The position numbers and the translations under genes were made by a program. The notes beneath the pieces were generated by a model. The model did no database searches. It saw nothing but the letters and a program-made list of their open reading frames with translations, and was not told where the DNA came from. A stretch of DNA of 20,980 nucleotides, taken from positions 1 through 20,980 of IMG/VR virus record IMGVR_UViG_3300017917_000497; one strand, given 5' to 3'. Source of the stretch: a virus. This document shows positions 2,472 to 19,546 of this stretch, piece by piece (within the stretch, counting starts at the first letter, position 1; every line of letters starts with the position of its first letter).

Positions 2472-2472
2472 A

Positions 2473-2982
2473 GTGGGTCAGATCAGTTGGATGCTTAGTC
2501 TAATACCAGATTCAGTGTTAAACTGGATCTACTGGGGTATCATTGCGGCTGGCATTACTGGTGTGGCAGCAGGCTGGCTAGGTCGTTGGATTCCATTTTA
2601 CGGAAAATATGTGCAAGTTTTAAAACCCGTAGGTGTTATTTTATTAGTCTTAGGTGTATGGTTACGAGGCGGGTACGATACGGAAATGGCTTGGAGAGAT
2701 AAAGTTCGTCAGTTAGAAGAGCAAGTAAAAATTGCAGAAGAAAAAGCCAATAACAAAAATGTTGAAATACAAACTAAGATTGTTGAAAAAACAAAAGTTA
2801 TTAAAGAACGAGGCAAAACACAGATTGAATATGTGGATCGTGTAATTTCACAAGACAAAGAAATAATCAAGTACGTTGAAAGTTGCCCTGTTCCTAAACT
2901 TATCATAGACGAGCACAACAAGGCTGCAACACCGCCAGAGTTTTTAACAGAAATAAACAAGGCAGCGGAGGGTAAGAAATGA
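2473..2982 (+). CDS. Putative i-spanin-like inner membrane protein
   Basis: The 169-aa product has two hydrophobic segments (about residues 13-37 and 48-66) followed by a long charged coiled-coil-like region (about 70-135, QLEEQVKIAEEKANNK) and a short tail. This layout, with the coiled coil on the periplasmic side, fits an Rz-type inner-membrane spanin subunit, which fuses inner and outer membranes in the last step of lysis; classical Rz has one membrane segment rather than two. The gene uses a GTG start, supported by AGGAG at 2462-2466 six bases upstream and by the position just after the endolysin. Its stop overlaps the start of a lipoprotein gene (ATGA), as i-spanin and o-spanin genes often do. 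Function is inferred from topology and neighbours. Confidence 0.72.
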   Translation: MGQISWMLSLIPDSVLNWIYWGIIAAGITGVAAGWLGRWIPFYGKYVQVLKPVGVILLVLGVWLRGGYDTEMAWRDKVRQLEEQVKIAEEKANNKNVEIQTKIVEKTKVIKERGKTQIEYVDRVISQDKEIIKYVESCPVPKLIIDEHNKAATPPEFLTEINKAAEGKK

Positions 2983-3242
2983 GAACGCTAATATTTGCTC
3001 TCGCTATTACCTTAGCAGGCTGTACTTCTGTACCAGTTAAACAAAAGTTTCCAGACGCTCCTAGTGCATTAAAAGAGCGTTGCGAAAATTTAAAGAAAAT
3101 AGAAGGCGATAAAGTTGCTATAACAGAAATGTTAAAAGTTATTGTTCAAAATTATACTCTTTATTATGAATGTTCCACCAAAGTCGATGGGTGGAACGAA
3201 TGGTATAACGAACAGAAAAAGATTTACGAAAGTGTAAAATGA
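2979..3242 (+). CDS. Small lipoprotein, probable o-spanin (Rz1-like)
   Basis: An 87-aa precursor with a lipoprotein signal: MRTLIFALAITLAGC, where LAGC is the lipobox and C15 would become the lipidated first residue. The mature part is short, has two further Cys residues (in KERCENLKK and YYECSTK) and ends with KVDGWNEWYNEQKKIYESVK. Outer-membrane lipoproteins of this size directly after an i-spanin are typically o-spanins, which bind the i-spanin through the periplasm. The mature protein is longer than lambda Rz1 and not Pro-rich. Similar 'VQNYTLYYEC...W' proteins are, as far as I recall, annotated as Rz-like in other T4-like phages. The start overlaps the upstream stop and its own stop overlaps the next gene. 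Confidence 0.75.
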   Translation: MRTLIFALAITLAGCTSVPVKQKFPDAPSALKERCENLKKIEGDKVAITEMLKVIVQNYTLYYECSTKVDGWNEWYNEQKKIYESVK

Positions 3243-3469
3243 AAACTGCAATAGTAGGATTAGCATTGTTGGTATTATCAGGGTGTGCAACTGTCAGTCC
3301 AGAGTCTGAAAAATCTATCTCTAGAGATAAGACAATGGAAAGGATGGCAAAGTTAGCTTTGATAAACGAAATGTTAAACAGCCCAGACCCTATTGTGAGA
3401 GCGAAGGCCGCAGAAATAGCGGAAAAGTTTATAAACGATAAAGAGAAAAAGGGCTTATTCGATTTTTAA
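3239..3469 (+). CDS. Second small lipoprotein, function unknown
   Basis: A 76-aa precursor with the lipobox LSGC (residues 13-16) after a hydrophobic N-terminus, so the mature protein starts at C16 and is only about 60 residues long. The mature part is charged and probably helical (KTMERMAKLALINEMLNS, then AKAAEIAEKFINDKEKK). The gene overlaps the preceding lipoprotein gene (ATGA) and is followed by a good ribosome binding site for the holin-like gene. It might be a second spanin component, a lysis modulator or a superinfection-exclusion lipoprotein; the sequence does not decide between these. Confidence 0.72.
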   Translation: MKTAIVGLALLVLSGCATVSPESEKSISRDKTMERMAKLALINEMLNSPDPIVRAKAAEIAEKFINDKEKKGLFDF

Positions 3470-5235: not shown

Positions 5236-7503
5236 ATGGTCGAACCAAGTGACAACCTTCAACTAGTTTTTGAAAAAGCTATTGATACCGCTAAAAAATT
5301 ACATCACGAATATCTAACAATTGAACACTTGTTGTTCGCAATGTTGCTAGAAGAAAGTTTTAGCAACTGCATTCAAGGTTTTGGCAAAGATCCAGAATCA
5401 TTGAGGAAAGAACTTGCAGACTTTTTACAGCATAAGTGCGGTGAAATCACTGTTGAAGATGTAGTTGTAAAACCTAAAAAGACACAAGCTGTCGAGCGTG
5501 TTCTAAATCGAGCATTTACCCAAGTATTGTTTAACGGACGTCAACGTATCGAACCAGCAGATGTCTTTATGGCCATGATGGGCGAAAAGCGTAGCTGGGC
5601 ACAGTTTTATATTTCTAAAGCGCAAATTGATAAAGAAAAATTTGCAGATTATCTTAACAACGCAACAGAAGAAAGTGAAGAAAGTTCTCCGCAAGATACG
5701 CAAGGAGAGCGGGCACTACAAGCCTTTACTTCTAACTTAAACGACATGGTTGTTAAAAAGAAAATCGACCCTGTCATTGGACGTATCGACGAACTAGAAA
5801 ATATTTCGCTTGCACTTGGTCGTCGTAGTAAAAACAACGTTATCCTGGTTGGAGATCCTGGCGTTGGTAAGACTGCTATTGCAGAAGGTCTTGCATTTAA
5901 TATTGTTAACGGATCTGTTCCAGACTTCTTAAAAGAATACAAGGTTTACAGTCTTGATATTAGTGCTATGCTTGCAGGTAGCAAATATCGCGGTGACTTT
6001 GAAGAACGTTTCAAACTAGTGTTGAAAGGTCTTTCTAAGAAAGGTAAGACTGTGTTGTTTGTAGATGAAGCACATATGATTAGCGGTGCCGGTTCTGCTA
6101 GCAACGGAGCTAACGACCTTGCCAACATGATGAAGCCTGCTCTTAGCAAAGGCAATATTAAAGTTATTGCATCTACTACATGGGAAGAATATCGTAAGCA
6201 CTTTGAAAAGGATCGTGCCTTGATGCGTCGTTTCCAACGCATTACTATCGACGAGCCTACACAAGAAATGTCTATTCAAATCCTTAAAGGTATTAAAAAA
6301 TACTACGAAGGATTCCATAATGTTAAAATTAGAGAAGACGCCATTCAAGCCGCAGTTAAGTTGTCTGTTAAGTATCAAACAGATAAAAAACTTCCAGACA
6401 AAGCTATTGACTTGATTGACTTGGCTTGCTCTCGTTTTAACTTGAAGATTGCCGGAGAACGTATAATCGGCGAGCGAGAAGTTCAATACGAACTTGCAAA
6501 GATGGTTCAGATGCCAGAAGAAAAAATCATGGAAACTGAATCTAGTAACTTAGCTACTTTGCAAGAAAACTTGGAAGAAGAAGTGTTTGGCCAAGATCTT
6601 GCTATTACAGAAATTGTAGATAAGATTATGGTTGCACAAGCAGGCTTAAAGTCTGAAAACAAACCAATTGGTAGCTTTGTGTTTATGGGTCCAACTGGTA
6701 CTGGTAAAACAGAAACTGCAAAAGCCCTTGCTAAGAACTTAGGTGTTAAACTTCTTCGATTTGATATGTCTGAATATCAAGAAAAGCACAGCATTTCTAA
6801 GTTAATCGGTAGTCCCCCAGGATACGTTGGCTTTGAAGAAAATGCTGGATTGCTTATTACTACTATTCAAGAAAGTCCTAACGCTGTATTGCTGTTTGAC
6901 GAAGTTGAAAAGTCACATCCGGATGTATCAACTGTACTATTGCAGATGATGGATAATGGTTTTATTACCGGATCTAACGGTAAGAAAGCAGATTGCCGAA
7001 ACTTAATTCTTATCCTGACAACTAACGCAGGCGCACAAGAAGCTGAGAAAAATGCAATTGGCTTTGGATCACAACAAAAAGATTACTCAGACAAAGACCT
7101 TAACAAGTTCTTTACACCAGAATTCCGTAACCGGTTGGATGGTATTATTACATTCAATAAGTTGGGCAAGGATACTATGGTTAAGATTGTTACAAAGTTC
7201 ATTGATGAGCTTCGTAGCCAAGTAAAAGAAAAGTCTATCAAGATTAAATTAGATAAAGAAAGTATTAATTGGCTAATTGCTAAAGGCTTTGATAACAAAA
7301 TGGGTGCCAGACCATTGCATCGCTTAATTGATAAAGAAATTAAGCGTCCGTTGGCTAAGATGATGTTGTTTGGTGAGCTAAAAAACGGTGGGACACTTTC
7401 TGTAACTACAGATGATGACAAACTAGTATTGATTGCCGCACCAAAAGAGCCAAAGGTACCATTGCTAACTGTTGAAGATACTATACTAGAAAATGGAGTA
7501 TAA
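5236..7503 (+). CDS. clpA: ClpA-type AAA+ unfoldase
   Basis: At 755 aa this is almost the length of E. coli ClpA (758). Residues 1-140 form the Clp N domain (KLHHEYLTIEHLLFAMLLEE). The first AAA+ module has Walker A GDPGVGKT (206-213) and Walker B with DEAH (277-280); the second has GPTGTGKT (485-492) and LLFDEVEKSH with D555/E556. There is no long coiled-coil middle domain, so it is ClpA rather than the disaggregase ClpB. Residues 608-610 are IGF, at the place of the IGL loop by which ClpA docks on ClpP. ClpA hexamers unfold proteins and feed them into ClpP; no clpP or clpS gene is in the window, so the host enzyme would be the partner. AGAGGAA at 5224-5230 is the ribosome binding site. The gene overlaps the next by 11 bases. 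Confidence 0.95.
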   Translation: MVEPSDNLQLVFEKAIDTAKKLHHEYLTIEHLLFAMLLEESFSNCIQGFGKDPESLRKELADFLQHKCGEITVEDVVVKPKKTQAVERVLNRAFTQVLFNGRQRIEPADVFMAMMGEKRSWAQFYISKAQIDKEKFADYLNNATEESEESSPQDTQGERALQAFTSNLNDMVVKKKIDPVIGRIDELENISLALGRRSKNNVILVGDPGVGKTAIAEGLAFNIVNGSVPDFLKEYKVYSLDISAMLAGSKYRGDFEERFKLVLKGLSKKGKTVLFVDEAHMISGAGSASNGANDLANMMKPALSKGNIKVIASTTWEEYRKHFEKDRALMRRFQRITIDEPTQEMSIQILKGIKKYYEGFHNVKIREDAIQAAVKLSVKYQTDKKLPDKAIDLIDLACSRFNLKIAGERIIGEREVQYELAKMVQMPEEKIMETESSNLATLQENLEEEVFGQDLAITEIVDKIMVAQAGLKSENKPIGSFVFMGPTGTGKTETAKALAKNLGVKLLRFDMSEYQEKHSISKLIGSPPGYVGFEENAGLLITTIQESPNAVLLFDEVEKSHPDVSTVLLQMMDNGFITGSNGKKADCRNLILILTTNAGAQEAEKNAIGFGSQQKDYSDKDLNKFFTPEFRNRLDGIITFNKLGKDTMVKIVTKFIDELRSQVKEKSIKIKLDKESINWLIAKGFDNKMGARPLHRLIDKEIKRPLAKMMLFGELKNGGTLSVTTDDDKLVLIAAPKEPKVPLLTVEDTILENGV

Positions 7504-8119
7504 GACTACTACAAGACTTTTCCGGGGCATATATCAATACAAAATTGTGTTGATATGTGCAGGTGCCGGTTGGTTTAGGAACGGGGACTGGGACAATGTT
7601 GCCACTCAGCTAAAGAAAGTTGATTTTGCAAGTAAAACCTATAACCCCGTCAACAAACTAATCAAAACACAGGAAGAGTTTGATTATGCTTCTAAATTAC
7701 TAGCAAAGATTTCTAAACTAAGCGATATCGATATTAGGGTTGAAAGCCCATACCTTAGCGTCTATACAAACACTAAATCTAATGTAGACGCATTGACTAA
7801 GTTAGATAAAGCCAAGGTGAAATACATATCTGTGCCTCCTGCCAACACAAATTTAGAAGAAGGCACAGTTATAATGCCCAAAGTAGACTTTGAATTTAAG
7901 GTAACTTTGAGCAAAAGCAACACAGAACATACTGCTTTTATCGACTGGGCAGAGTCTAACGACAAGGTTAAGCTAACAAAAAGCACTAAACGAGCACTAC
8001 AACGTCCACGCAGTTGGGGCGGTACACACTTCTATATAACGGGCGAAAAGAACCTGATGCTAGCCCGTTTACACCTGGGCTCTTGCATAGGAAAAGTAGA
8101 ACGCATTATCAAAGCGTAG
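7493..8119 (+). CDS. Unknown 208-aa protein coupled to clpA
   Basis: I do not recognise a named family. The protein begins MEYKTTTRLFRGIYQYKIVL, followed by ICAGAGWFRNGDWD, and its second half contains two beta-rich stretches and a basic C-terminus (KALQ-like helix RALQRPRSWGG, then THFYITGEKNLMLARLHLG). It has no signal peptide or membrane helix. The start lies within the last 11 bases of clpA, so translation is probably coupled and it may belong to the same functional unit, for example as an adaptor, but that is only suggested by the position. The N-terminal part resembles, from memory, proteins of unknown function in other T4-like phages. Confidence 0.75.
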   Translation: MEYKTTTRLFRGIYQYKIVLICAGAGWFRNGDWDNVATQLKKVDFASKTYNPVNKLIKTQEEFDYASKLLAKISKLSDIDIRVESPYLSVYTNTKSNVDALTKLDKAKVKYISVPPANTNLEEGTVIMPKVDFEFKVTLSKSNTEHTAFIDWAESNDKVKLTKSTKRALQRPRSWGGTHFYITGEKNLMLARLHLGSCIGKVERIIKA

Positions 8120-8136
8120 CACGTAAATAGCCAAAG

Positions 8137-8145
8137 CGATAAATA
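8137..8145 (+). promoter_or_regulatory. T4-like late promoter candidate (CGATAAATA)
   Basis: CGATAAATA contains the ATAAATA core of the T4 late -10 element (TATAAATA). It lies in the 71-base gap before a new run of genes, and the same 9-mer recurs at 12787-12795. Expected transcription start is near 8151, so the mRNA would begin just before a small hairpin. Confidence 0.55.
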
Positions 8146-8146
8146 C

Positions 8147-8178
8147 AATAACCGCAGATTTTTCTGCATTATTATTTT
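8147..8178 (+). terminator. Hairpin with T-run in the gap before the 123-aa gene
   Basis: GCAGA-TTTT-TCTGC (8154-8167), extended by AATAA (8147-8151) and TTATT (8169-8173) with small mismatches, is followed by TTTT (8175-8178). It could end transcripts from the clpA unit. Because a late promoter seems to fire just upstream, it may instead be a stabilising 5' hairpin of the late mRNA. The stem is short, so the terminator call is tentative. Confidence 0.4.
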
Positions 8179-8190
8179 ACGGGCTTAAAA

Positions 8191-8562
8191 ATGCGTATAC
8201 GTGAACTATTAGAGGGCAAAATCTTTAATGATTTAGATTTTGTTAAACAAACAGGCGATAAAAGAGAATTAGACTACGACCTCATCGAGGACTTAGTTTA
8301 TTTCATGAATAACGACGATGAGCTATATCGTCGAGAAGTGTACCCAGCTATTGTAAAGTGTTTGGTTGGATCTAAAACAAAAAAGATTCCAGAAGCTAGC
8401 ATCTTTCGCCCTGCTGTAGAAAAAAGTTACAAAATTTACCTTCAAAAGTTTCCTATCAGAGAGCTTCCTGAAAACTTAGATAACGAGTTACTATCTAAAG
8501 TTTGTAAAAAAATGCACGAGGAAGTTAAACAACACATTTCCGATGGCAAGTATAAGGATTAA
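8191..8562 (+). CDS. Unknown 123-aa protein with MRIRELLEG N-terminus
   Basis: A small, mostly helical, charged protein (YDLIEDLVYFMNNDDELYR near the middle, KVCKKMHEEVKQHISDGKYK at the end) without recognised domain. Its N-terminus MRIRELLE|G closely resembles the starts of the next two genes (MLLRELFA, MNLRELFAE) and the capsid-targeting peptides of T4 head-packaged proteins, with LLE a possible gp21-type cleavage site. It is the first gene after the late-promoter-like element and is followed by TAATAATG into the next gene, so it is part of the accessory block. No good Shine-Dalgarno sequence was seen. Confidence 0.75.
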   Translation: MRIRELLEGKIFNDLDFVKQTGDKRELDYDLIEDLVYFMNNDDELYRREVYPAIVKCLVGSKTKKIPEASIFRPAVEKSYKIYLQKFPIRELPENLDNELLSKVCKKMHEEVKQHISDGKYKD

Positions 8563-8564
8563 TA

Positions 8565-10412
8565 ATGTTACTTCGTGAATTATTTGCCAATCCTAAAAAA
8601 GTTCTCGCTGAAGGCGGAAACATCTGGCCAGAGTCTGAGCAATTCGATCAAATTATTGCTAGTAGACTGGCCTCAGAAACAAACAAGTACCTAGCAGGCG
8701 TCAATACTAAAGCACACTTGATAGGCAGTGCCGCAACACCGACACCCGGTAAAATGAGCGGTGACTTAGATGTTATGGTTGATTTAGACAACATCATGAC
8801 TATGATGAAAACTAACGAACCTAAACAGGCTAGAATTGGATTAGAACAATTTTTACAAAACCAAGGCTTACAAACTAAGAGAACAGGCGTAACAGTTCAC
8901 ATACTATTACCATTTGAAGATAGTTATTATCAAGTAGACATTAAAGCAGTTAAGAACGCAGAGCGTGTAAGTAAGTTCCACACACACAATATACCTGCTG
9001 GCAGTCCTTATAAAGGTGTCCACAAACAAATGATGATGAACGCATTAGCAACTAGTCAGGGTATGCTTTGGAGTCCAGACGAAGGTCTTTATGCTAGAGA
9101 TGACAAGGGTAAAAAAGCAAACTTGTTAAGCGATAACTTAGATGATATTGCAAAAGCCTTGCTTGGACAACATGCCAAAGCAGAAGATTTAGGAAGTGTT
9201 GAATCTATTCTTAATGCTATTCCAGATCCAACACGTAAACGAGAAATATTCGACCTAGCAAGCGGTGGGTCTAGTTGGCTTAAAGTTTCTGAAGGGTGGG
9301 AATTAAAAGAGGCTGCGCCAGCAGTAGGTCGTAAATATCAGCATATTGAAGATTTAGTTTTTACGAACGGGAGTAACGGCGGATTACATGCTGTCGAGCG
9401 TCTGCGTCAAATGGGCACACAAGGTGGCTCAATTGAATTAAAGTGGGACGGTAGCCCAGTAGTGTATTGGGGTAGAGACGAAAACGGAACATTTAGAATG
9501 TTTCCAAAAAATGCTTGGGACTATGTAAAGCGTGGCGCCATGCAAACAAAGAATGGCGTCTCAACAATGATGGATAGCCCTAAGGACATAGAAAACTTTG
9601 TTATGAACACTGGAGATGCCAGTGCTAGTAAAGAAAGAAAAGCATTTGCAAAAAGATTAGCTCAACTATGGCCTTACTTTGAAAAGATTAGTCCGCAGGT
9701 TGGATTTATAGAAGGCGGAATATTGTTTAGCCCAATCAAACCTGCTGTATTAAATCGTAAAACTAACGAGTGGGAATTTACTCCCAACATAACTACATTC
9801 CATATTTCAGCAGATACTGAGTTAGGACAGCGTATTAAAACTGCACACCTTATGGTTGCTGCCACTGGCTACTATAAAACTCTAGGCGGAGATGAAGAAA
9901 GGTTCCCCAATGCAGAAGAACTATCAACACCCGATGTTATAGTTCAAGGAACTACTTACGTAGAAGAAGCACCTGGCGCAGACGAAGAAGGACTAAATCA
10001 AGTTGCTAACTTTATCTCAACAAATGCTAATGTAATTGATAGCTTCTTAGCAGGACAGCCTGGATTAAGCAAGCCAGGTGATATACTTTACAAATTTTTC
10101 AACCAGAATTTACGTGTAGCAGGTACAAAAACTAAATTTGTAACTTGGGTTAAGGCTAACCTTAGTGCAGGACAAGCACAAAAAGTTTTAACACATCCAG
10201 GGTTAAATACAGTATTAGACGCTGTAGAAATGCTTACACAAGAAAAAATGAAGTTATTATCTGTATTAGGGCAAGGTACGCACGGTGGAATCAGACAAAC
10301 AAAACCAGAAGGTTATGCACAAGCACACCCTGGAGGAAAGTTTAAATATGATTTGCCTGGACAATTTGTCAAAGCTATAGATCAAGCTAACTGGGCTCCA
10401 AGGAAGGACTAA
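8565..10412 (+). CDS. Nucleotidyltransferase plus ligase-like fusion protein
   Basis: This 615-aa protein seems to join two catalytic modules. The N-terminal part has the Pol-beta-type nucleotidyltransferase signature: GS at 54-55, then GDLDVMVD with D67 and D69 as metal-binding acids, and a later YQVDIKAV that may supply the third acid. The second part has KWDG at 293-296, the KxDG motif whose Lys is adenylated in DNA/RNA ligases, followed by FIEGGILFSP (381-390) and FTPNITTFHI (405-414), which sit where the later ligase motifs would be. The N-terminus MLLRELFA...VLAE|G resembles a capsid-targeting peptide. The combination suggests nucleic-acid end modification or repair, but substrate and activity are unknown. 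It overlaps the next gene as TAATG. Confidence 0.7.
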   Translation: MLLRELFANPKKVLAEGGNIWPESEQFDQIIASRLASETNKYLAGVNTKAHLIGSAATPTPGKMSGDLDVMVDLDNIMTMMKTNEPKQARIGLEQFLQNQGLQTKRTGVTVHILLPFEDSYYQVDIKAVKNAERVSKFHTHNIPAGSPYKGVHKQMMMNALATSQGMLWSPDEGLYARDDKGKKANLLSDNLDDIAKALLGQHAKAEDLGSVESILNAIPDPTRKREIFDLASGGSSWLKVSEGWELKEAAPAVGRKYQHIEDLVFTNGSNGGLHAVERLRQMGTQGGSIELKWDGSPVVYWGRDENGTFRMFPKNAWDYVKRGAMQTKNGVSTMMDSPKDIENFVMNTGDASASKERKAFAKRLAQLWPYFEKISPQVGFIEGGILFSPIKPAVLNRKTNEWEFTPNITTFHISADTELGQRIKTAHLMVAATGYYKTLGGDEERFPNAEELSTPDVIVQGTTYVEEAPGADEEGLNQVANFISTNANVIDSFLAGQPGLSKPGDILYKFFNQNLRVAGTKTKFVTWVKANLSAGQAQKVLTHPGLNTVLDAVEMLTQEKMKLLSVLGQGTHGGIRQTKPEGYAQAHPGGKFKYDLPGQFVKAIDQANWAPRKD

Positions 10413-11482
10413 TGAATTTAAGAGAACTTTTTGCAGAAAATATCGAGCGTACAGGCGAGAGCAAAACAGCCGTCATCGGTTGGGGAAGAGGCATGGGTCA
10501 TAAGGGACACATGTACCTTGCTGATGCAGTCATTAGCGAAGCTAGAGATACAGATTCAGATCCATATTTTGTTGTAAGTCGTACAATGGGTAAAGACGAT
10601 CCTCTCACACCCGAAGAAAAATTGTATCTTTACAAAAAAGTATTCCCTAAAATGGCGCACATCTTCCATACAGCAAGCGAAGAGTTACCAGATTTAAATC
10701 GTGTTCTTAAACATTTAGGAAATCTTGGTTATACAGATGTAACAGTTGTTGTTGGTGCTGATCAAAAGCCGGCATTCCAGTATCTTGTTAAACCAGATAA
10801 GTCTGGAGTTGAGCCTTACAAACAGTTTGGCTTTGACTCTATGAGGGTTATCAGTCGACAAGAAACTAGCAGTAAGTTTGCAAACGTAGAAGGACCACGT
10901 GCTACACCAATGCGTGATATACTTAAAGATCCTTCTGCTGACGACGATAAGAAATTTGCGGCATGGCGAGATGCTATGAATCCTGAAATTAGCGACGACG
11001 AAGTACGTGACTTAATGAAAAAGGCGCATACAAGAATGTCCGATCCTTCGTTTGGTAAAAAGCCAAAGTCTGTAAAAGAAGCCAATGCATTAGCTAGGTC
11101 ATTGAGAGAAGGATCTTCAGGAAAAGTTGGCAAGGGCGGTACAAAAAATATCGACAAAGAAAAGAAGTCAGCCATGAAAAATGCAGTAACCATTCCTGGT
11201 TTAAACCAAAGTACTGGTAGTGCTTATAAAAATTATAGAATGAGTATAGCACTTGCAGGTGCTCCTACGTTTCCTACTAAAATTGAAGCAGACAACTGGA
11301 TTGGCGGAGATCCGTTAATCAGCTCATATACAGAAGAAGAATTTGAAATGGTGAAAGCAGCCGCGTTACAAGTCGGTGCTGGAACTATACAAAACTGGTC
11401 TGGTAATCGTAGTGAAGAAATGGCCGATGTTAATAAGACAAGTGCTGTAGCAAAGATTAAAAAGAACAAATACGGAGTTTAA
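10412..11482 (+). CDS. HxGH-type nucleotidyltransferase
   Basis: The 356-aa protein has an N-terminal Rossmann-type nucleotidyltransferase domain: TAVIGWGRGMGHKGHMYLAD with GHKGH at 29-33 in place of the family HxGH motif, then VVVGADQ and, further on, VEGPRATPMRDIL in the position of the (S/T)xxxR signature. This superfamily includes NMN adenylyltransferases and cytidylyltransferases, which transfer AMP or CMP to a phosphate. The C-terminal third is Lys-rich and of unknown function. The start MNLRELFAE|N is very like the T4 Alt leader MELITELFDE. It directly follows the nucleotidyltransferase-ligase gene (TAATG), so the two may act together. The substrate cannot be read from the sequence. 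Confidence 0.78.
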   Translation: MNLRELFAENIERTGESKTAVIGWGRGMGHKGHMYLADAVISEARDTDSDPYFVVSRTMGKDDPLTPEEKLYLYKKVFPKMAHIFHTASEELPDLNRVLKHLGNLGYTDVTVVVGADQKPAFQYLVKPDKSGVEPYKQFGFDSMRVISRQETSSKFANVEGPRATPMRDILKDPSADDDKKFAAWRDAMNPEISDDEVRDLMKKAHTRMSDPSFGKKPKSVKEANALARSLREGSSGKVGKGGTKNIDKEKKSAMKNAVTIPGLNQSTGSAYKNYRMSIALAGAPTFPTKIEADNWIGGDPLISSYTEEEFEMVKAAALQVGAGTIQNWSGNRSEEMADVNKTSAVAKIKKNKYGV

Positions 11483-11483
11483 A

Positions 11484-11924
11484 ATGGAGTTAACCAAATA
11501 TCACTTAGCTTTAAAAACAGCATTTGCTAGTGAATATGCCTTTTACTTAAAGGCACAAAACTTCCACTGGAACGTAGAAGGTAGATTATTTGCACAAGAC
11601 CACGAATTATTCGGTAAAATTTACGAAGAAGTTGGAAGCATTATTGACGACTTTGCAGAAAATTTACGTAAAGCTGGAACTTATGCGCCAGCAAGTTTCC
11701 ACAAGTTTAGTATGCTAAGTGCTATTGAGGACGAACAAGAAAACATTCCTGCAGAACAAATGTACGAAACATTATATCAGGATAGCGAAAAGTTAGCTAA
11801 CATTTTCCGCATTACGTTTGATATGGCAGAGCAAAACGACGATCACGGGTTAGCTGACTTTTTAGCAGGGCGTCAAGATGCTCACAAAAAACACAGCTGG
11901 ATGCTAAGATCAACATTAAAATGA
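11484..11924 (+). CDS. dps: Dps-like ferritin
   Basis: The 146-aa protein has the length and motifs of the Dps family: YLKAQNFHWNVEG, DHELFGKIYEEV and IIDDFAENLRKAG. Dps dodecamers oxidise and store iron and often bind DNA, protecting it from peroxide. By alignment in my head with E. coli Dps, H28, H40, D55 and E59 match ferroxidase ligands H51, H63, D78 and E82, but the position of D67 is G44. The missing Asp may weaken ferroxidase activity, or a neighbouring acid (E41, E48) may replace it. There is no Lys-rich DNA-binding tail. The start lies 1 base after the upstream stop, and the stop overlaps the next gene by ATGA. Dps in a phage could protect phage DNA in the cell or the virion. Confidence 0.9.
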   Translation: MELTKYHLALKTAFASEYAFYLKAQNFHWNVEGRLFAQDHELFGKIYEEVGSIIDDFAENLRKAGTYAPASFHKFSMLSAIEDEQENIPAEQMYETLYQDSEKLANIFRITFDMAEQNDDHGLADFLAGRQDAHKKHSWMLRSTLK

Positions 11925-12199
11925 AACAGTATAGAATTACCACAGAGCACATAAATCAAGATAGTGCCGATGACTGTTATCTTGCACCGGATGATCCTGT
12001 ACACGAGTTAAAGGCAATACAACATTTAGCAGGGTTAGGTTCTGATGCAAGATTACATGAGATGCGTGGTAGCAATATAAGTATTACTGGCAATGAAAAT
12101 TTACGCATTGAAAGAGAAAATAATATTAAACCAGGAACTCCTGAATGGTTTAAATTATGGTTTAGTTTACCCTACTTAACAGGGGAGAAAAAAATATGA
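11921..12199 (+). CDS. Unknown 92-aa protein
   Basis: A small acidic protein with no recognised domain. It starts MKQYRITTEHINQDSADDCY and ends with IKPGTPEWFKLWFSLPYLTG plus a basic tail. The C-terminal motif with its many aromatic residues looks conserved and recalls small proteins of marine T4-like phages, again only from memory. The gene overlaps its neighbours on both sides (ATGA), so it is translated together with the Dps gene and the next one. No signal peptide or membrane segment is present. Confidence 0.72.
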   Translation: MKQYRITTEHINQDSADDCYLAPDDPVHELKAIQHLAGLGSDARLHEMRGSNISITGNENLRIERENNIKPGTPEWFKLWFSLPYLTGEKKI

Positions 12200-12792
12200 A
12201 AATTGAAGACTTAGACGAAAATTGGCGCAGAAGAGGTTACAGTTACGGCTATAATCCTGAAAGAGATGCTGAGAGAGCATGGGATGCCGCTCAACGCAGT
12301 GAACAAGATTTTAGAAATCGAGAGCGTAATGCTGGTGTAGAACACGAAGATGACCCAGAATGGCAACGTCAACAACGTGAAAAGGATCGTGGACCTTGGT
12401 ATTTAAAAATCAACGGAAAGATTTATAAGCAAAAAGGTATCCCCAAGTCTTTTGATTGGAAAAGTGGTGCTACAAAGTACGGACTAGCTATTCTTAAAAA
12501 CAATCCAACTGCCAAAATTTTCTTAACTAAAAAGCCAGAAGACGATTTAGCAGAAACTGCTACTGCTGGTGCAACAAACGCATCTAACATAGGAACTGTA
12601 GATGCACCGCACATTAGTCCTGGAAAGGCCCGAGGTAAAAAGAGCTACACAGGAAGTCCTAGTACAGGATCGGGTACAAAAGCGCCTCCACAGCCTAAAG
12701 TAAAACAACCCAAAACTAAAGCAGGAACAGCCGTAAATGCCCTGGACATGAAGGGTGCTAGTTTGTTCGGTGGGCCAGCCATAAAACGATAA
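12196..12792 (+). CDS. Unknown 198-aa protein with WYLKINGK domain and Lys/Pro tail
   Basis: Three parts are visible: a charged N-terminal stretch rich in Arg, Asp and Glu (residues 1-65), a small domain (about 66-120) with GPWYLKINGKIYKQKGIPK and KIFLTKKPED, and a low-complexity tail rich in Lys, Pro, Ala, Gly and Ser. The central segment looks like a compact beta-rich module I associate with other marine phage proteins, but I cannot name it. The start MKIEDLDE|N could be a short capsid-targeting peptide. GGGGAG before the ATG is a good ribosome binding site, and ATGA overlap links it to the previous gene. The basic tail suggests nucleic-acid contact. Confidence 0.7.
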   Translation: MKIEDLDENWRRRGYSYGYNPERDAERAWDAAQRSEQDFRNRERNAGVEHEDDPEWQRQQREKDRGPWYLKINGKIYKQKGIPKSFDWKSGATKYGLAILKNNPTAKIFLTKKPEDDLAETATAGATNASNIGTVDAPHISPGKARGKKSYTGSPSTGSGTKAPPQPKVKQPKTKAGTAVNALDMKGASLFGGPAIKR

Positions 12793-12795
12793 ATA
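12787..12795 (+). promoter_or_regulatory. T4-like late promoter candidate (CGATAAATA), second copy
   Basis: The same 9-mer as at 8137-8145 lies between the stop of the 198-aa gene and the ATG at 12819. Transcription would start near 12801, leaving a leader of about 18 bases with CGGAG as ribosome binding site. Identical sequence and similar placement make a shared regulatory role likely. Confidence 0.55.
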
Positions 12796-12818
12796 TATAA
12801 AGATAACGGAGTTACAAC

Positions 12819-14186
12819 ATGCCACTAGATTTAGATAACAATGAACCAACAGGACAACCAGTAGTTGGATTACAAGGCGGTGAAGCTGATCGCGAAGGAG
12901 CGATGGCTAAGGCTGATTTGTTTAAATTAGCCAACTATGCCCACAAGCTATTCCAAAACCTCAACGATGATGATCAGTTAGAAGGATGGGTACAGGCTAA
13001 AATTACTAAAGCCGCAGACTACATTGCTAGTGTGTATCACTATCTAGAGTATGAAATGAAGTTTAGCGAGTACGGTAAGGCTTTAGATGACAGCGATGTA
13101 TTAAGCGAGAGTCAAAAAGTAGCTATCAAGAATCGCTTGATGGAAGCTAAAGAGAAGATTAAAGAGCTTAAGAAGTCTCAAGCTGAAAAGCAAAAGAAAG
13201 AAAAGCACGTACACGAAGGAATTTTAAGTGGCGGCGAATCACAATGTCCAGAATGTGGTGGCTCTGGTATTGTAATGATGCCAGAAAAACAAGTTCCTGA
13301 AGCTACTAAAGAAAAGGTTAAGAAGTACAATCGTCTAATGAAGGCTGCTAAAGCTGCTCACAAGCGTATGGATGCAAATCACAACGGTATTCCAGACGAC
13401 GAAGAAATGGAAGAAGGTCAAGAAGATCTTAAGAAAACAGGTGATTCTTATAAAACATCCCGTGGCGGCACAGTAACTAAGACTAAAACAGGTCTAAAGC
13501 ACGAGAAAGGTGATTACTCTGACGAGCAACACGTTGAGCCAGCACAGAAGAAAGCAAGTAAGGCAGGTATGACTGGTGCAGAGCGTCGTGAACAAAAGTC
13601 AGCAGACAAAGAACAAGAGAAGTCGGGTAAAGATTGGGAAAAGCGTTTCGGCAAAGGTTCTGTAACACGTCACAAGATGAAAGTAGACGAAGCATCTAAG
13701 CCAGACTACATTGACTTAGACAAAGACGGCGACAAGAAAGAGCCGATGAAAAAAGCCGCCAAGGACGCTAAGAAAGAAAAGAAAGTTGACGAGTCTAAGC
13801 CAAGTGCAGGACTAAGCAAAGAGAAAAAATCCGAAGTAGTTAAAAAAGCTAAGGCAGGCGGAGACATTGGTAAACCAGGTAAAGGATTTGCTAAAGTAGA
13901 AAAGGCTGCTAAGAAGTCTGGTGCTAAAGATCCTAAAGCAGTTGCCGCGGCAGCTATGTGGAAGAACATCAAAGAAACTCAGGCATACATTGCAGAAAAA
14001 GCAAAGATGGCCGACAAAGACTATGACGGTGACGGTAAAGTAGAATCCGATAAAGATGAAGTTTGGGGTTCACGTGCTAAGGCTGCTGAAAAAGCAGGTA
14101 AGCCTTTTGATAAAAAGACTGAATCAATTAACGAGTCAACAGATATCAATCGTATTAAAGAACTTACAAATCGTCTATTAGGATAA
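12819..14186 (+). CDS. Lys/Ala-rich protein with calcium-loop-like motifs
   Basis: The 455-aa protein has a folded-looking helical N-terminal region (about 25-120) and then a long, highly charged Lys/Ala/Glu region. Three Asp-rich loops resemble EF-hand, dockerin or thrombospondin-3 calcium-binding loops: DANHNGIPDDEE (185-196), DLDKDGDKKE (299-308) and DKDYDGDGKVESDKDE (399-414). A single CPECGGSG (143-150) matches the CxxCxGxG zinc-knuckle repeat, but stands alone. Such composition fits an internal head protein or DNA-compacting protein, as in T4 internal proteins, though this is inference. A late-promoter-like site and CGGAG precede the gene, which probably starts its own transcript. Similar DxDxDG-rich proteins occur in marine T4-like phages according to my memory. 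Confidence 0.72.
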   Translation: MPLDLDNNEPTGQPVVGLQGGEADREGAMAKADLFKLANYAHKLFQNLNDDDQLEGWVQAKITKAADYIASVYHYLEYEMKFSEYGKALDDSDVLSESQKVAIKNRLMEAKEKIKELKKSQAEKQKKEKHVHEGILSGGESQCPECGGSGIVMMPEKQVPEATKEKVKKYNRLMKAAKAAHKRMDANHNGIPDDEEMEEGQEDLKKTGDSYKTSRGGTVTKTKTGLKHEKGDYSDEQHVEPAQKKASKAGMTGAERREQKSADKEQEKSGKDWEKRFGKGSVTRHKMKVDEASKPDYIDLDKDGDKKEPMKKAAKDAKKEKKVDESKPSAGLSKEKKSEVVKKAKAGGDIGKPGKGFAKVEKAAKKSGAKDPKAVAAAAMWKNIKETQAYIAEKAKMADKDYDGDGKVESDKDEVWGSRAKAAEKAGKPFDKKTESINESTDINRIKELTNRLLG

Positions 14187-14190
14187 TACT

Positions 14191-15702
14191 ATGGACATGA
14201 AGCGAATTCTACAGGCTTTTGATGGTGCTTCTACAAAGCCTGTAGAAGGCGCAAATCAAATGTCTAAGTTCTTAAAGTTAGTTAGTGAAGCTGATATAAA
14301 TCAGTCAACAAGCAAAGCAGCCTCAATCACACAAGCACCCGATGGTAGTTACACCGTAACTTACCTACGTGCTCCATTGTCTTTATCTGGTACTCCTGAA
14401 GAAGGAAAAATTCCTCCTCCACAAACTGGTATTACAGATTTAGCAACAGCTCAAAGAATTGTTGCAAGTATAGACAAAGAAGAAGATGTTATGGCCACCA
14501 TGCCATCATCTATTACCGTTAACGAATCTGATCCAATCCCTGCAATGCCAGACGTAACTGGGCTACAACCTGGGCAATCTAAAGATTTAGATAACGGTGA
14601 GCGTGTAACTGTTAACAAAGACGGTACTGTTAGCTATAGTGGTGGCTGGGGAGTTTATGTGTATAATGCACAAGGACAACATGTTAAAACACAAAGTCCG
14701 GCCTTTGGCGGATACAGCCAAGAAACAGATCCTAGCGGAAAAGTAATACAACAAAATTATAATGCAGGACCTATGAGTGTTCAGCAAGGACCTCAAGGTA
14801 CTACTGCTAGATACAATATTGGCGGGCAGGAGATGACAACAACACAAGTACAAGAAAATGACTTGTCTAAGTTTTTGTCTATTGTAGATAAAAACGATGT
14901 TAAGATATTAAATGAAAGTTCTCCTCATAAAGTTACATTGCCGGTTCAAATGGCTATGCAACATTATCAAAAGCCTAAAGAAAAAGTTGTTAAGAACAGT
15001 CTAATTTCTAAATACTTTGTTGAAGCTGAAGAAGCAATAAAACAAAAAGAAGAAGATCGAAAAGATCTAATCCGCCAGTATGCCAGCGTTATTGCAGAAC
15101 GTGTAATGATTAAAGAGTCGTCTGCACAGCAAGCGGCTATTGCTATTTCAAAAAAGAAATCGGGCAAATACGACAAAGACGGTAAGCGTATTAAAGAACA
15201 TGCAATAAAAGGACATCAGCCTGGATTTGACGGCGGTGTTGGACCTGGCATGCAAGACTATACTGTAGACGAAGCACCTATAGAATTAGATATTGAGAAA
15301 CCAATGTCTAGTATGGTTCATAGTCACAAAGGCGCAAATCCTGGTAGCATTGAATACAGAATTATGCGAGCTCGCAACCAGCTAAAAGAATTAGCCAAGT
15401 TAGCAGAAAGCAACGATCCACTAGTTTGGGAACATATTAGTAAACTATTTCCTGAGCTACAAATGAATATTGAACAAGTTGCACACGGATTATCCGAGTT
15501 GGGGAAAGAAAAACGCAAAGGCGGAGTTCGTAGTAAGAATATTCCAAAAGGGTTAGATGAAGTAGTTATGCCAAAGATAACTGCACAAAAACCTAAAGCA
15601 ATTAAACCTAAAGCAAAGACAAGTACTTGCAGAGCAGGACAAGTACAAACTGGTGTTCAAACTAAAGATGGGAAAACTGTACCCAAGTGTTCAGTAAAAT
15701 AA
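14191..15702 (+). CDS. Unknown 503-aa protein, possible virion protein
   Basis: No named domain recognised. Residues 1-35 (ASTKPVEGANQMSKFLKLVS, then EAD) are followed by a Gly/Thr/Gln-rich, beta-like region (40-215, with NKDGTVSYSGGWGVYVYNAQ), then a second SKFL motif (226-229, LSKFLSIVDKND) and a helical charged region (KVTLPVQMAMQHYQ, 275-330). Near residues 385-440 is a helical segment with IEYRIMRARNQLKELAKLAE. The C-terminus has two Cys (STCRAGQVQ, VPKCSVK). The repeated SKFL segment suggests that the beta-like part was inserted between duplicated ends. It starts 4 bases after the Lys-rich protein gene, and LVSE|A could be a prohead-protease site. The function is unknown. Confidence 0.72.
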   Translation: MDMKRILQAFDGASTKPVEGANQMSKFLKLVSEADINQSTSKAASITQAPDGSYTVTYLRAPLSLSGTPEEGKIPPPQTGITDLATAQRIVASIDKEEDVMATMPSSITVNESDPIPAMPDVTGLQPGQSKDLDNGERVTVNKDGTVSYSGGWGVYVYNAQGQHVKTQSPAFGGYSQETDPSGKVIQQNYNAGPMSVQQGPQGTTARYNIGGQEMTTTQVQENDLSKFLSIVDKNDVKILNESSPHKVTLPVQMAMQHYQKPKEKVVKNSLISKYFVEAEEAIKQKEEDRKDLIRQYASVIAERVMIKESSAQQAAIAISKKKSGKYDKDGKRIKEHAIKGHQPGFDGGVGPGMQDYTVDEAPIELDIEKPMSSMVHSHKGANPGSIEYRIMRARNQLKELAKLAESNDPLVWEHISKLFPELQMNIEQVAHGLSELGKEKRKGGVRSKNIPKGLDEVVMPKITAQKPKAIKPKAKTSTCRAGQVQTGVQTKDGKTVPKCSVK

Positions 15703-15704
15703 AA

Positions 15705-16454
15705 ATGAATTTTGTTTTAAACGAAGATAACTCAGTTACACTAACTCGTAGCAACGGTACACAAGTAACGTTCGATCCAGTTTCTTTATTAATTTTAAAA
15801 GACAGTAGTATCTCTGGACAGCTAATTGAAAGTTTCGGCCATGCTACGCACATGTCCGACGAAGAGTTAGAAGAATACAGTTGGGATCAATTTAAATCAG
15901 ATGCAGGCGACTTTGGTAGAGGTGCATTGCAAGGTGTAACATTAGGAACTGGAAAGAACATTGCCGCTGGCATTAAAAGTGCTCTTGGTCCAGGAACTTA
16001 TAAACAAGAATTAGAAAAACAAATTGCAGCCGATCGCGCCGCACAAGAACGTAGCCCGTGGCTTTATGGTGCAGGAAACGTTGCAGGTGCATTAGCTGTA
16101 CCAATCCCCGGAGGTGCTGTTGCTAATGCAGTAGTAAAAGGAACAGGAACTGCTGCCAAGGTTGCAAGAGGCGCAGTTAATGTTGGTACAAATATTGCCA
16201 CACAAGCAGCCGTTGATAAAGCTGTTAATACAGCTAACACAAAAACTTTAGGCTATGATCCAGACAAGTATCCAATTACTCCAGAAGAAATCAAAGCCTT
16301 CCAAAAAGCAAAAGGTTTAAAACAAGACGGCGTAATTGGCACAAGAACACAACAAGAACTAGATAAACTAGGACTAAAACCCCCATCGTTATCTGAAACT
16401 ATTTTAAAATTGCAACAACGGCTTGCAACTATCGAAAACGGAATGGCAGAATAA
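15705..16454 (+). CDS. Gly/Ala-rich protein with C-terminal peptidoglycan-binding domain
   Basis: The 249-aa protein has three parts: an N-terminal domain (MNFVLNEDNSVTLTRSNGTQ), a Gly/Ala-rich helical middle (about 70-165, GRGALQGVTLGTGKNIAAG and SPWLYGAGNVAGALAVPIPG), and a C-terminal PG_binding_1-like domain (about 190-230, IKAFQKAKGLKQDGVIGTRT). The middle part resembles the membrane-active segments of phage proteins that are injected with DNA, while the last domain binds peptidoglycan. I start at the ATG at 15705, two bases after the upstream stop; a GTG at 15687 would overlap that gene without support. The stop codon lies in the loop of a strong terminator, so this is the last gene of the block. 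A role at the cell envelope during DNA entry is an inference. Confidence 0.75.
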   Translation: MNFVLNEDNSVTLTRSNGTQVTFDPVSLLILKDSSISGQLIESFGHATHMSDEELEEYSWDQFKSDAGDFGRGALQGVTLGTGKNIAAGIKSALGPGTYKQELEKQIAADRAAQERSPWLYGAGNVAGALAVPIPGGAVANAVVKGTGTAAKVARGAVNVGTNIATQAAVDKAVNTANTKTLGYDPDKYPITPEEIKAFQKAKGLKQDGVIGTRTQQELDKLGLKPPSLSETILKLQQRLATIENGMAE

Positions 16455-16470
16455 TTCTGCCATTTTTTTT
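16442..16470 (+). terminator. Strong Rho-independent terminator
   Basis: AATGGCAGAA (16442-16451) pairs perfectly with TTCTGCCATT (16455-16464) around a 3-base loop TAA, which is the stop codon of the upstream gene. Eight T residues follow (16463-16470). It closes the accessory block and separates it from the replication genes. Confidence 0.92.
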
Positions 16471-16531: not shown

Positions 16532-16789
16532 ATGGGCGGTCGTTCATACGGTGCAGAAGAAAAGGCTAAATTGGAACGCTTAATTAGCGAAGGTTCCACA
16601 GTATTACGTGAAATTGAAGATTTACAAGAAGGCTTAAAAGAAACTGTTAAAGCAGTTGCAGAAGAATTACAGGTAAAACCCAGCGTTATTAATAAAGCAA
16701 TTAAAATCGCTCATAAAGGCGATTGGAGCCAGTATAACGAAGACTGGGAAGAAATTGAAGCAATTTTGGATATTACAAAACGTATCTAA
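16532..16789 (+). CDS. dsbA: Putative DsbA-like double-stranded DNA-binding protein
   Basis: The 85-aa protein is helical and acidic: KLERLISEGSTVLREIEDLQ, then KETVKAVAEELQVKPSVINK and HKGDWSQYNEDWEEIEAILD. Length and pattern match T4 DsbA, a small dsDNA-binding protein that binds late promoters and enhances late transcription (not the disulfide isomerase of the same name). T4 DsbA has a comparable central RAKDELGVDGKMFNRLL segment followed by HKDN and an acidic end. The call is based on remembered family features. Its own sigma70-type promoter suggests early or middle expression, sensible for a factor that would then act on late promoters such as those at 8137 and 12787. It lies directly upstream of the DNA polymerase. 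Confidence 0.68.
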   Translation: MGGRSYGAEEKAKLERLISEGSTVLREIEDLQEGLKETVKAVAEELQVKPSVINKAIKIAHKGDWSQYNEDWEEIEAILDITKRI

Positions 16790-16876: not shown

Positions 16877-19546
16877 ATGTCTTATGTCGACGCATGGTTC
16901 GACCGCGAAAATGATATTATCAAAATCGTGGAGCGAAACAAAAAGGGCGAAAGAGAATTTAAAGATATTCCCGTACGCCACACATTTTATGTAAAAGACC
17001 CAAAGGGCAAACATCAATCAATTTACGGCGACGCAGTAAGCCGTATCGTGTGCAAAAACACAAAAGAACTTCGTAAAGAAATGGCCATTAACAGTGGCAA
17101 GACACTATACGAAGCAGACATTAACCCAATCTTTGTAACACTTAGCGAGCATTATATAAATGCAGATGCTCCTAAACTAAATGCTGCCTTTTTCGATATT
17201 GAAGTAGACTTTGATCCAGAACGTGGTTATGCATCGCCCGATGATGCATTTATGCCAATTACTGCGATTGCTGTCTACCTACAATGGATGGAAACCATGA
17301 TTTGTTTGGCGATTCCGCCTAAAACAATAACAATGGATAAAGCAAAAGAGTTAGTTGCAGAGTTTCCAAATACAATGTTATTCGATAACGAAGCACAACT
17401 GCTGGACACATTCTTAGATTTAATTAAAGATGCAGATGTTATTAGTGGTTGGAACTCCGAAGGCTTTGACGTTCCATATACAGTTAATCGTGTTACAAAA
17501 GTTCTAAGCAAAGAAGACACCCGCCGTTTTTGTTTGTTTGACCAACTTCCTCGCAGACGAGAGTTTGAAAAATTTGGACGTGAAGCAACTACTTACGACT
17601 TTATTGGTCGTGTTCATGTAGACTATCTAGAACTTTATAGAAAGTACACATATGAAGAAAGACACTCGTATAGACTGGATGCTATCGCGGAATACGAGCT
17701 TGGAGAACGTAAAACACAATACGAAGGTACATTGGATCAGCTCTACAACAATGACTTCAAAACGTTCATCGAATATAACAGACAAGACTGTGCGCTATTG
17801 GACAGACTTGATAAAAAACTAAAGTTTCTAGACCTTGCTAATACACTAGCACACGAAAATACCGTGTTGATTCAAACAACAATGGGTGCTGTGGCCGTGA
17901 CTGAACAAGCAATTATTAACGAAGCTCATCGTCGGGGGTTTGTTGTTCCTAACAGAACAAAGATGAGCGAGCGTGAAAGCAATGAAGGTGCGGCAGGTGC
18001 GTATGTTGCTTATCCTAAAGAAGGATTACAAGACTGGGTCGGATCGCTAGATATTAACAGTCTTTATCCGTCTGCGATTCGTGCATTAAACATGGGCCCA
18101 GAAACTATTGTAGGCCAATTGCGGCAAACTTATACAGAAGAACATATTCAAAACTTAATTGCCAAAGGTAAGAGTTTTGCGGCAGCATGGGAAGGTTTGT
18201 TTGGTTCGTTAGAATATACTGCTGTAATGAATCAAGAAATCGGAACTGACATTACTATTGACTGGGAAGATGGATCTAGTGATATACTAAGTGCCGCAGA
18301 AGTTTACAGATTAATCTTTGAAAGCAATCAGCCTTGGATGTTAAGTGCTAACGGTACTATCTTTACTTACGAAAAGGAAGGTATCATTCCAGGACTGTTA
18401 AAGCGTTGGTATGCTGAACGTAAAGAGATGCAGGCCAAACTAAAGGAAGCAATTAAAGCAGGTAATAAGATTGAAGAAGAATACTGGGACAAGCGACAAC
18501 TGGTTAAAAAGATTAACTTGAATAGTTTGTACGGCGCTATTCTTAATAACGGTTGTAGGTTTTTCGATAAACGTATCGGTCAATCAACTACACTAACTGG
18601 TCGTCAAATTGTTAAACACATGGCTAGTAAGGTTAACGAAATTATTACAGGCGAGTATGACTATCGAGGCAAATCGGTTATCTATGGAGATACAGATAGC
18701 TGTTACTTTAGTGCCTATACAACACTAAAGAAAGATATTGATGCTGGTCTTATTCCTTGGACTAAGGAAAGTGTTATACAACTATACGACCAAATTGGTG
18801 AGGAAGTAAACACTACATTCCCACAATTCATGCTAGATACTTTCCACGTTCCTAAAACACGCGGAGAAGTTATCAAAGCAGGACGAGAAATTGTTGGATC
18901 AAAGGCATTGTTCATTACTAAGAAGCGTTATGCTGTTCTTTACTATGATAAAGAAGGTAAACGAACAGACGTTGATGGCAAACCTGGTAAAATTAAAGCT
19001 ATGGGATTAGACCTTAAGCGCAGTGATACGCCTGAATTTATCCAAGACTTCTTAAGCGAAATTCTTGAAAAGGTACTAACAGGGTCTAGTGAACAAGAAG
19101 TTCTAGACTACATCAGCGAATTTAGAATGAAGTTTAAAGGTCGTCCTGGCTGGGAGAAAGGGTCTCCAAAACGTGCCAACAATATTACAGAATACCAAGC
19201 AAAAGAAAGTAAGCAAGGCAAAGCAAATATGCCAGGGCATGTTCGTGCTAGTATTAACTGGAATACCTTGAAAAGAATGTATAACGACAAATACTCTATG
19301 GGTATTACTGACGGTGCCAAAGTTATTGTGTGCAAACTTAAATCTAACCCATTAGACTTTACTAGTGTTGCCTATCCAGTAGACGAGCTACGTTTACCGC
19401 AGTGGTTTAAAGACTTGCCGTTTGATCATGCTGAAATGGAAGCTACCATTATCGATAAGAAGCTAGAAAACCTTATTGGTGTTCTAAACTGGAACATTAC
19501 CAGCACAGAAGAAAAAAATACCTTTAACAGTTTATTTGAGTTTTAA
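16877..19546 (+). CDS. 43: Family B DNA polymerase (T4 gp43-like)
   Basis: The 889-aa protein is close to the length of T4 gp43 (898). The 3'-5' proofreading exonuclease has Exo I FDIE (106-109), Exo II with D198 in GWNSEGFDVPY and Exo III with D304 in YNRQDCALL. The polymerase domain has motif A DINSLYPS (392-399), motif B KKINLNSLYG (NSLYG at 549-553) and motif C YGDTDS (603-608) with catalytic D605 and D607. All key residues are present, so it should be an active replicative polymerase working with the gp45 clamp encoded downstream. AGGAG at 16863 and hairpins in the leader suggest translational control. Genes for gp44, gp62 and RegA, neighbours in T4, are not in the window; a sugar dehydrogenase gene sits between polymerase and clamp. 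Confidence 0.98.
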   Translation: MSYVDAWFDRENDIIKIVERNKKGEREFKDIPVRHTFYVKDPKGKHQSIYGDAVSRIVCKNTKELRKEMAINSGKTLYEADINPIFVTLSEHYINADAPKLNAAFFDIEVDFDPERGYASPDDAFMPITAIAVYLQWMETMICLAIPPKTITMDKAKELVAEFPNTMLFDNEAQLLDTFLDLIKDADVISGWNSEGFDVPYTVNRVTKVLSKEDTRRFCLFDQLPRRREFEKFGREATTYDFIGRVHVDYLELYRKYTYEERHSYRLDAIAEYELGERKTQYEGTLDQLYNNDFKTFIEYNRQDCALLDRLDKKLKFLDLANTLAHENTVLIQTTMGAVAVTEQAIINEAHRRGFVVPNRTKMSERESNEGAAGAYVAYPKEGLQDWVGSLDINSLYPSAIRALNMGPETIVGQLRQTYTEEHIQNLIAKGKSFAAAWEGLFGSLEYTAVMNQEIGTDITIDWEDGSSDILSAAEVYRLIFESNQPWMLSANGTIFTYEKEGIIPGLLKRWYAERKEMQAKLKEAIKAGNKIEEEYWDKRQLVKKINLNSLYGAILNNGCRFFDKRIGQSTTLTGRQIVKHMASKVNEIITGEYDYRGKSVIYGDTDSCYFSAYTTLKKDIDAGLIPWTKESVIQLYDQIGEEVNTTFPQFMLDTFHVPKTRGEVIKAGREIVGSKALFITKKRYAVLYYDKEGKRTDVDGKPGKIKAMGLDLKRSDTPEFIQDFLSEILEKVLTGSSEQEVLDYISEFRMKFKGRPGWEKGSPKRANNITEYQAKESKQGKANMPGHVRASINWNTLKRMYNDKYSMGITDGAKVIVCKLKSNPLDFTSVAYPVDELRLPQWFKDLPFDHAEMEATIIDKKLENLIGVLNWNITSTEEKNTFNSLFEF

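Follow-up and report, generated by a model that had tools for sequence, protein, structure and literature searches.

The window, which is the whole stretch of DNA analysed here, was a complete IMG/VR fragment of 20,980 bases from an uncultured T4-like phage (IMGVR_UViG_3300017917_000497). On its plus strand, from 8191 to 16454, lay a block of nine genes (A, B, C, a Dps gene and E to I), some of which began with a short hydrophobic leader ending in Glu. An earlier note on this DNA had taken such N-termini for T4-type capsid-targeting sequences on proteins packaged in the head and injected with the DNA. As set out below, the block is quite probably a T4-type capsid-targeted cargo module in which part of the proteins use the leader. 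Genes A, B and C were consecutive and operon-like, with the following features (a slash marks a predicted or possible cut):

8191..8562, plus strand: gene A, 123 amino acids, fold unassigned, leader MRIRELLE/G, also in homologue N-termini
8191..8214, plus strand: leader of A, predicted cut LLE/G, from the homologue alignment
8565..10412, plus strand: gene B, 615 amino acids, leader followed by a PolX-type nucleotidyltransferase and a ligase-like DUF6267 domain (DUF6267 E = 9e-13)
8565..8612, plus strand: leader of B, MLLRELFANPKKVLAE/G, predicted cut LAE/G
8625..9203, plus strand: PolX-like catalytic domain, residues 21-213, from a fold match and G54-S55, D67, D69 and D125
9327..10409, plus strand: DUF6267 domain with KWDG (K293) and EG..K motifs; 16/16 aligned members match PF19782
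10412..11482, plus strand: gene C, 356 amino acids, leader followed by a HIGH-superfamily adenylyltransferase (phrog_3041, E = 4e-21)
10412..10438, plus strand: leader of C, MNLRELFAE/N, which differs among relatives

All three starts were found as the earlier note had given them, and the leader type recurred when N-termini were compared across homologues from ~100 related contigs. Counted as distinct N-termini, a hydrophobic leader was present in 33/36 for A, 50/69 for B and 35/60 for C, that of B being conserved as M[LF]LREL[FY]...L.EGGNIW. It was present in 0 N-termini of seven comparison families, namely Dps, E and G from inside the block, a DsbA-like protein and three upstream genes. The leader peptides of the block were kept among relatives while their codons differed synonymously, indicating that selection acts on the peptide. 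In AlphaFold models the leaders of B and C were of low confidence (pLDDT ~41) and lay outside the enzyme domains.

Two ~161-kb relatives (G001 and G005) were read end to end, and their genes were scanned with the pattern M.[ILVM].[ED][LFMI][LFIYM]. It was found in 4/10 block genes against 1/127 others in G001 (Fisher p = 7e-5), and in 3/9 block genes against 1/141 others in G005 (Fisher p = 6e-4). Given this background of 2/268 called genes outside the block, the binomial chance of three matches among nine block genes was ~3e-5. A chance or compositional likeness of short operon genes might be suspected, as hydrophobic-Glu patterns are short, [L/I]xE is common and the cyanophage S-SCSM1 (see below) had no proteome-wide enrichment. 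This explanation was rejected as highly improbable on the homologue tallies, set against zero in the seven comparison families, on the block-versus-rest statistics and on the synonymous codon changes. From these tallies and the concentration in the blocks of G001 and G005, the observation of the earlier note was accepted as real for genes A, B and C, with moderate support for F and weak support for I.

The leader was tied to the polypeptide N-terminus and not to the enzyme domain, since it was gained at gene splits and absent at fusion joints. The DUF6267 half of B also existed as a separate gene, whose new N-terminus then bore a Glu-ending leader (MLLNELFSNLKE/A, MKIRELIIE/A, MRAIEFLTE/A, MKIKEFITE/A, MKINEILTE/A, MRASEFLTE/A, MKFSDILFE/A and MRAEQFILE/N). 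In an alignment of DUF6267 proteins down to 20% identity, the Glu was the sole nearly invariant leader position. B-C fusion proteins kept the B leader, and their internal joint, NWAPRKDN[IL]QENINRTGEGK, was without the C leader. A second HIGH subtype of C (FGRFNPPHRGH) bore the near-identical leader MRLRELFEN. The fusion would make a second leader needless also if the leader served to dock A, B and C into a complex outside the virion, with one another or with a common partner, for instance the replication machinery, and no packaging took place; the adjacency and probable co-translation of A, B and C would suit such a complex.

The gp21-type protease and scaffold core genes were not found within the window, which is a fragment. 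Both gp21 (Peptidase_S77) and gp23, to which the earlier note had pointed as a check, were present in 6/6 large relatives searched, and gp22 and gp67-like genes were found in G001 and G005. Leader matches outside the block of these two genomes were few and lay for the most part in head genes. They included gp22 in both (MLDALKSLFE/N) and MILRELFYIDPDTR of a small gene (the MILRELF gene), conserved across four relatives and located between the portal gene gp20 and a gp67-like core gene; the others were MKVYEIITP near gp20 in G001, and MKSFKEYLIE and MYNFIKTIVE in G005. That the same leader type starts head-module genes (gp22 and the MILRELF gene) speaks against a role in a non-virion complex. 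The gp21 match of G005 (G005:45201-45829, minus strand) contained an in-frame stop and a frame change, reflecting either an assembly error or a broken gene.

In T4, targeting needs leader residues 4 and 7 and cutting needs residues 8 and 10; Asp at residue 10 stops cutting while targeting persists, and gp21 cleaves after L/I-X-E (PMC9026906). The sites of A (LLE/G) and B (LAE/G) fitted L/I-x-E, and that of C in the window was FAE/N. In gp23 of the relatives, LME/S lay a few residues before the stretch aligning with residue 17 of a mature T4 gp23 chain, and this would be compatible with an LxE rule for their protease.

Carriage of C-type (cytidyltransferase/NMNAT-like) proteins in virions has been reported for cyanophages (PMC3037559, PMC10665884, PMC9602691). 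The published proteome of S-CREM2 (PMC10665884) was set against the N-terminal sequences encoded by the full set of 219 listed genes, and a strict leader pattern was found in 5/52 virion proteins versus 3/167 others (one-sided p = 0.02). All five virion matches were non-structural or of unassigned function: a SAM hydrolase (MKDFDSFLEE), a kinase (MKRFDAFLTE), ORF13 (MKDLHSFLTE), ORF136 (MQTFSMFFSE) and the C orthologue ORF154 (MKNFSSFLTE/A). The C orthologues GC190 of S-SM1 (MKKFSAFLNE/A; a virion protein per PMC3037559) and ORF91 of S-SCSM1 (MKSFLQFLKE/A; a virion protein per PMC9602691) shared with it the start MK.F..FL.E/A. The neighbours of ORF91 (ORF89, 90, 92 and 93) were also annotated as virion proteins, and a 36-amino-acid segment of gene G had 61% identity to ORF92 (Blastp E = 5e-9). 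S-CBWM1, a phage with a virion NMNAT, was left aside, its annotated head genes appearing unlike the T4 set. These T4-type leaders on C orthologues in virions of three phages, the leader on unrelated S-CREM2 virion cargo and the Glu kept in DUF6267 proteins are hard to square with a role of the leader in a complex outside the virion, which we consider unlikely.

Two leader-like sequences were seen away from annotated starts. In S-CREM2 ORF12 (7704-10313), a Cas9-like virion protein, LRFASFMAE/AA ended near residue 25. The annotated start of the Bellamy cytidyltransferase (2111-3298) was seemingly late, and an upstream in-frame start would give MKSLFQFLNE/AQSQAS, a leader of the cyanophage type.

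Several points weigh against packaging by means of the leader. Many C homologues start MLLREFLNRTG, without a cleavable Glu, and C proteins of this kind still keep the leader, as a non-virion complex would allow. One A clade has lost the leader, it is missing from some C and DUF6267 proteins, and it was absent from P-HM1 C and from DUF6267 of P-HM1 and of S-PM2. Across the S-SCSM1 proteome, leader and virion presence were not associated (1/48 versus 3/230). The virion data cover C orthologues, not those of A or B, and come from phages that are not close relatives, and the authors of two proteomes caution that co-purification in CsCl is possible (PMC10665884, PMC9602691). Loss of the motif with retention of the enzyme, which the earlier note had named as telling against its own reading, did occur, in a minority only (the MLLREFLNRTG C group, one A clade and some C/DUF6267 proteins). 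The T4 mutants that are targeted and uncut offer a possible reading of the MLLREFLNRTG group, namely that it is targeted and uncut as well.

Residues 9-217 of B matched the DNA polymerase beta/lambda fold (Foldseek E = 4e-6 with a predicted structure; VIA Z 11.6, root-mean-square deviation (rmsd) 4.4, 186 residues), and the catalytic signature of GS and three Asp (GS...DxD...D) was read from the sequence. The N-terminal half of B was thus predicted to have a family X DNA polymerase-type catalytic fold. Unlike family X polymerases, B was fused to DUF6267, and the 8-kDa DNA-binding domain was not seen. In the DUF6267 alignment K, W, D, G, E, G and K (KWDG, then EG and K) were invariant, so that this half is predicted to resemble ligase-type nucleotidyltransferases. 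Among the structural matches listed for B, which were filled by the PolX half, none was to a solved ligase.

Residues 17-210 of C matched adenylyltransferases of the PPAT/NadD type (VIA Z 11.8, rmsd 3.0, 153 residues); Foldseek by itself gave a weak match (best E ~0.01). With HKGH (H30-K-G-H33) as its HxGH motif, C was predicted to be a HIGH-type adenylyltransferase with a PPAT/NadD-like Rossmann fold. It differed from CoaD/PPAT and NadD in its long charged C-terminal tail and in scoring too low for a match to the Pfam model. Searches of PDB sequences with profiles of B, C and DUF6267 gave zero matches, gene A had zero relatives in INPHARED or PDB, and a literature search for DUF6267 gave zero papers. 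Roles in DNA repair for B or in NAD metabolism for C might be expected from these folds. Retention of complete catalytic signatures in B and C bears on a further explanation, in which packaging and gp21 processing do take place, yet the proteins act only inside the head, in core packing or DNA condensation, and have no functional delivery. T4 IPIII does function in head assembly (PMC9026906), and two block proteins, G and F, are rich in Lys or charged; core packing would not require catalytic signatures, and we regard a head-only role as improbable.

Signals for transcription were found at the borders of the block and within it:

8138..8145, plus strand: late-promoter-like GATAAATA upstream of gene A
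12788..12795, plus strand: late-promoter-like GATAAATA upstream of gene G
16440..16466, plus strand: intrinsic-terminator-like hairpin of 12 pairs and a T run, closing the block

These two promoter-like sites held the only two copies of NATAAATA in the window, both on the plus strand. A NATAAATA site also lay 41 nucleotides (G001) and 51 nucleotides (G005) upstream of the A homologue, and most NATAAATA sites of these genomes were ≤110 nucleotides upstream of genes, A included in both. The exact late promoter TATAAATA was absent from the window, and its one-mismatch matches were not enriched (27 versus 42 expected). The late-promoter-like sites of the earlier note corresponded to the NATAAATA sites upstream of A and G, not to exact TATAAATA, and its strong terminator to the hairpin.

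The remaining genes of the block were as follows:

11484..11924, plus strand: Dps-like ferritin without a leader (PF00210, E = 3e-18)
11921..12199, plus strand: gene E, 92 amino acids, without a leader
12196..12792, plus strand: gene F, charged, leader-like MKIEDLDE/N
12819..14186, plus strand: gene G, Lys-rich, 455 amino acids, without a leader
14191..15702, plus strand: gene H, start MDMKRILQA..., conserved in relatives, with an internal KFLKLVSE/A motif
15705..16454, plus strand: gene I, ~249 amino acids from ATG, glycine-rich, with PG_binding_1

A hydrophobic leader was found in 12/25 distinct N-termini of the F family and 8/16 of the H family. The start of F itself, which the earlier note had listed as a leader, was without the second hydrophobic position, but relatives had fuller forms (MKIKELLE/G, MKINELVQE/N and MKIMEILSE/I). 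The start of I (MNFVLNE/D), also listed there, was dropped, as homologues began otherwise (MNLRDLMNKLDTIAE/A, MDFKALLQELEAIE). Dps was without a leader, as the earlier note had said (0/16 distinct N-termini leader-like). A 12-mer Dps shell is wider than a tail tube, and on both counts its suggested place among the injected cargo was given up. Gene H contained a recurring motif like xxKFLxxV (QMSKFLKLVSEAD, NDLSKFLSIVDKND), which may represent internal protease sites or repeats. Gene I appeared shortened; most relatives were far larger (many of 457-985 amino acids), glycine-rich and with a peptidoglycan-binding end.

Outside the block the window encoded a DnaJ-like protein, an endolysin and two virion structural proteins upstream, and:

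5236-7503: ClpA-type ATPase
16532-16789: DsbA-like regulator
16877-19546: family B DNA polymerase

Directly 5′ of gene A, at 7493-8119, was a 208-amino-acid gene without a family match, kept in ~100 relatives. Megablast of the complete window against INPHARED gave zero matches and so no nucleotide-level relative. In IMG/VR, relatives of B were found in 283 stretches and relatives of C in 93. Among cultured relatives, the module is present in Methylophilales phage Melnitz, Pelagibacter phage HTVC008M and the cyanophages S-SM1 and S-CREM2. Two jumbo-sized contigs, G002 (399,796 bases) and G003 (345,369 bases), encoded this T4-like head module together with cargo-block relatives.

Since the leader resembles the head-loading address tag of T4, enzymes B and C probably travel inside the particle and reach the host with the DNA. 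Capsid targeting as read by the earlier note was well supported for A, B and C (leaders that track N-termini, gp21, gp22 and gp23 in relatives, C in virions) and abandoned for I and Dps. In the proposed mechanism the block would be expressed late in infection, and the leaders of A, B and C at the least, probably also those of F and H, would work as the capsid-targeting sequence of T4 does. Being amphipathic, the leader would dock the protein on the prohead scaffold core, gp21 would usually cleave after [L/I/F]-x-Glu to free the enzyme within the head, and the cargo would exit with the DNA through the tail on infection. At entry the host would receive B as an enzyme for the repair of DNA gaps or ends, and C as an adenylyltransferase of nucleotide or NAD type. 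The leader need not be on every cargo protein, as some S-SCSM1 virion block proteins have none, and G may be another leaderless cargo protein.

As in the T4 IPI-III/Alt system, a short amphipathic N-terminal leader, usually ending in [L/I]xE, stood on unrelated proteins of putatively late genes in a phage group encoding gp20, gp21, gp22 and gp23. Unlike that system, the wording of the block leader was M.[IL]R[ED]L[LF], targeting and cleavage are predicted here, and the place of the T4 ADP-ribosyltransferase and anti-restriction proteins would be taken by a PolX-ligase-like enzyme together with a HIGH adenylyltransferase. The cyanophage (Kyanoviridae) T4-GC190 proteins (S-SM1, S-CREM2 ORF154, S-SCSM1 ORF91) are homologous enzymes with a T4-type leader, and in S-SM1 GC190 adjoins DUF6267 (GC71), as C adjoins B in the window. 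C was only ~27-33% identical to them, their leader was of another type, and the window had gene A, the PolX domain on DUF6267 and Dps beyond the cyanophage arrangement.

The earlier note had thought such an injected set undescribed. Virion carriage of C-type enzymes has been reported in cyanophages, but no link to a leader was found in the literature; in the literature searched, which was without most subscription journals, neither the modular leader nor its link to head genes nor a leader-tagged PolX-DUF6267 protein appears to have been described. We put forward, tentatively, that these phages package and inject a PolX-DUF6267 ligase gap-filling and joining enzyme and an adenylyltransferase as a repair or counter-defence kit, with the leader as an exchangeable tag attached at splits and dropped at fusions. 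If true, packaging by this leader would provide a sequence rule for telling which proteins are present in the particles of T4-like phages from lakes and oceans, would explain the route of NMNAT-like enzymes into cyanophage virions, and would indicate a packaged PolX-ligase-like enzyme, none being described in the searched literature. A natural tag on many enzymes would also be of use for loading proteins into phage heads.

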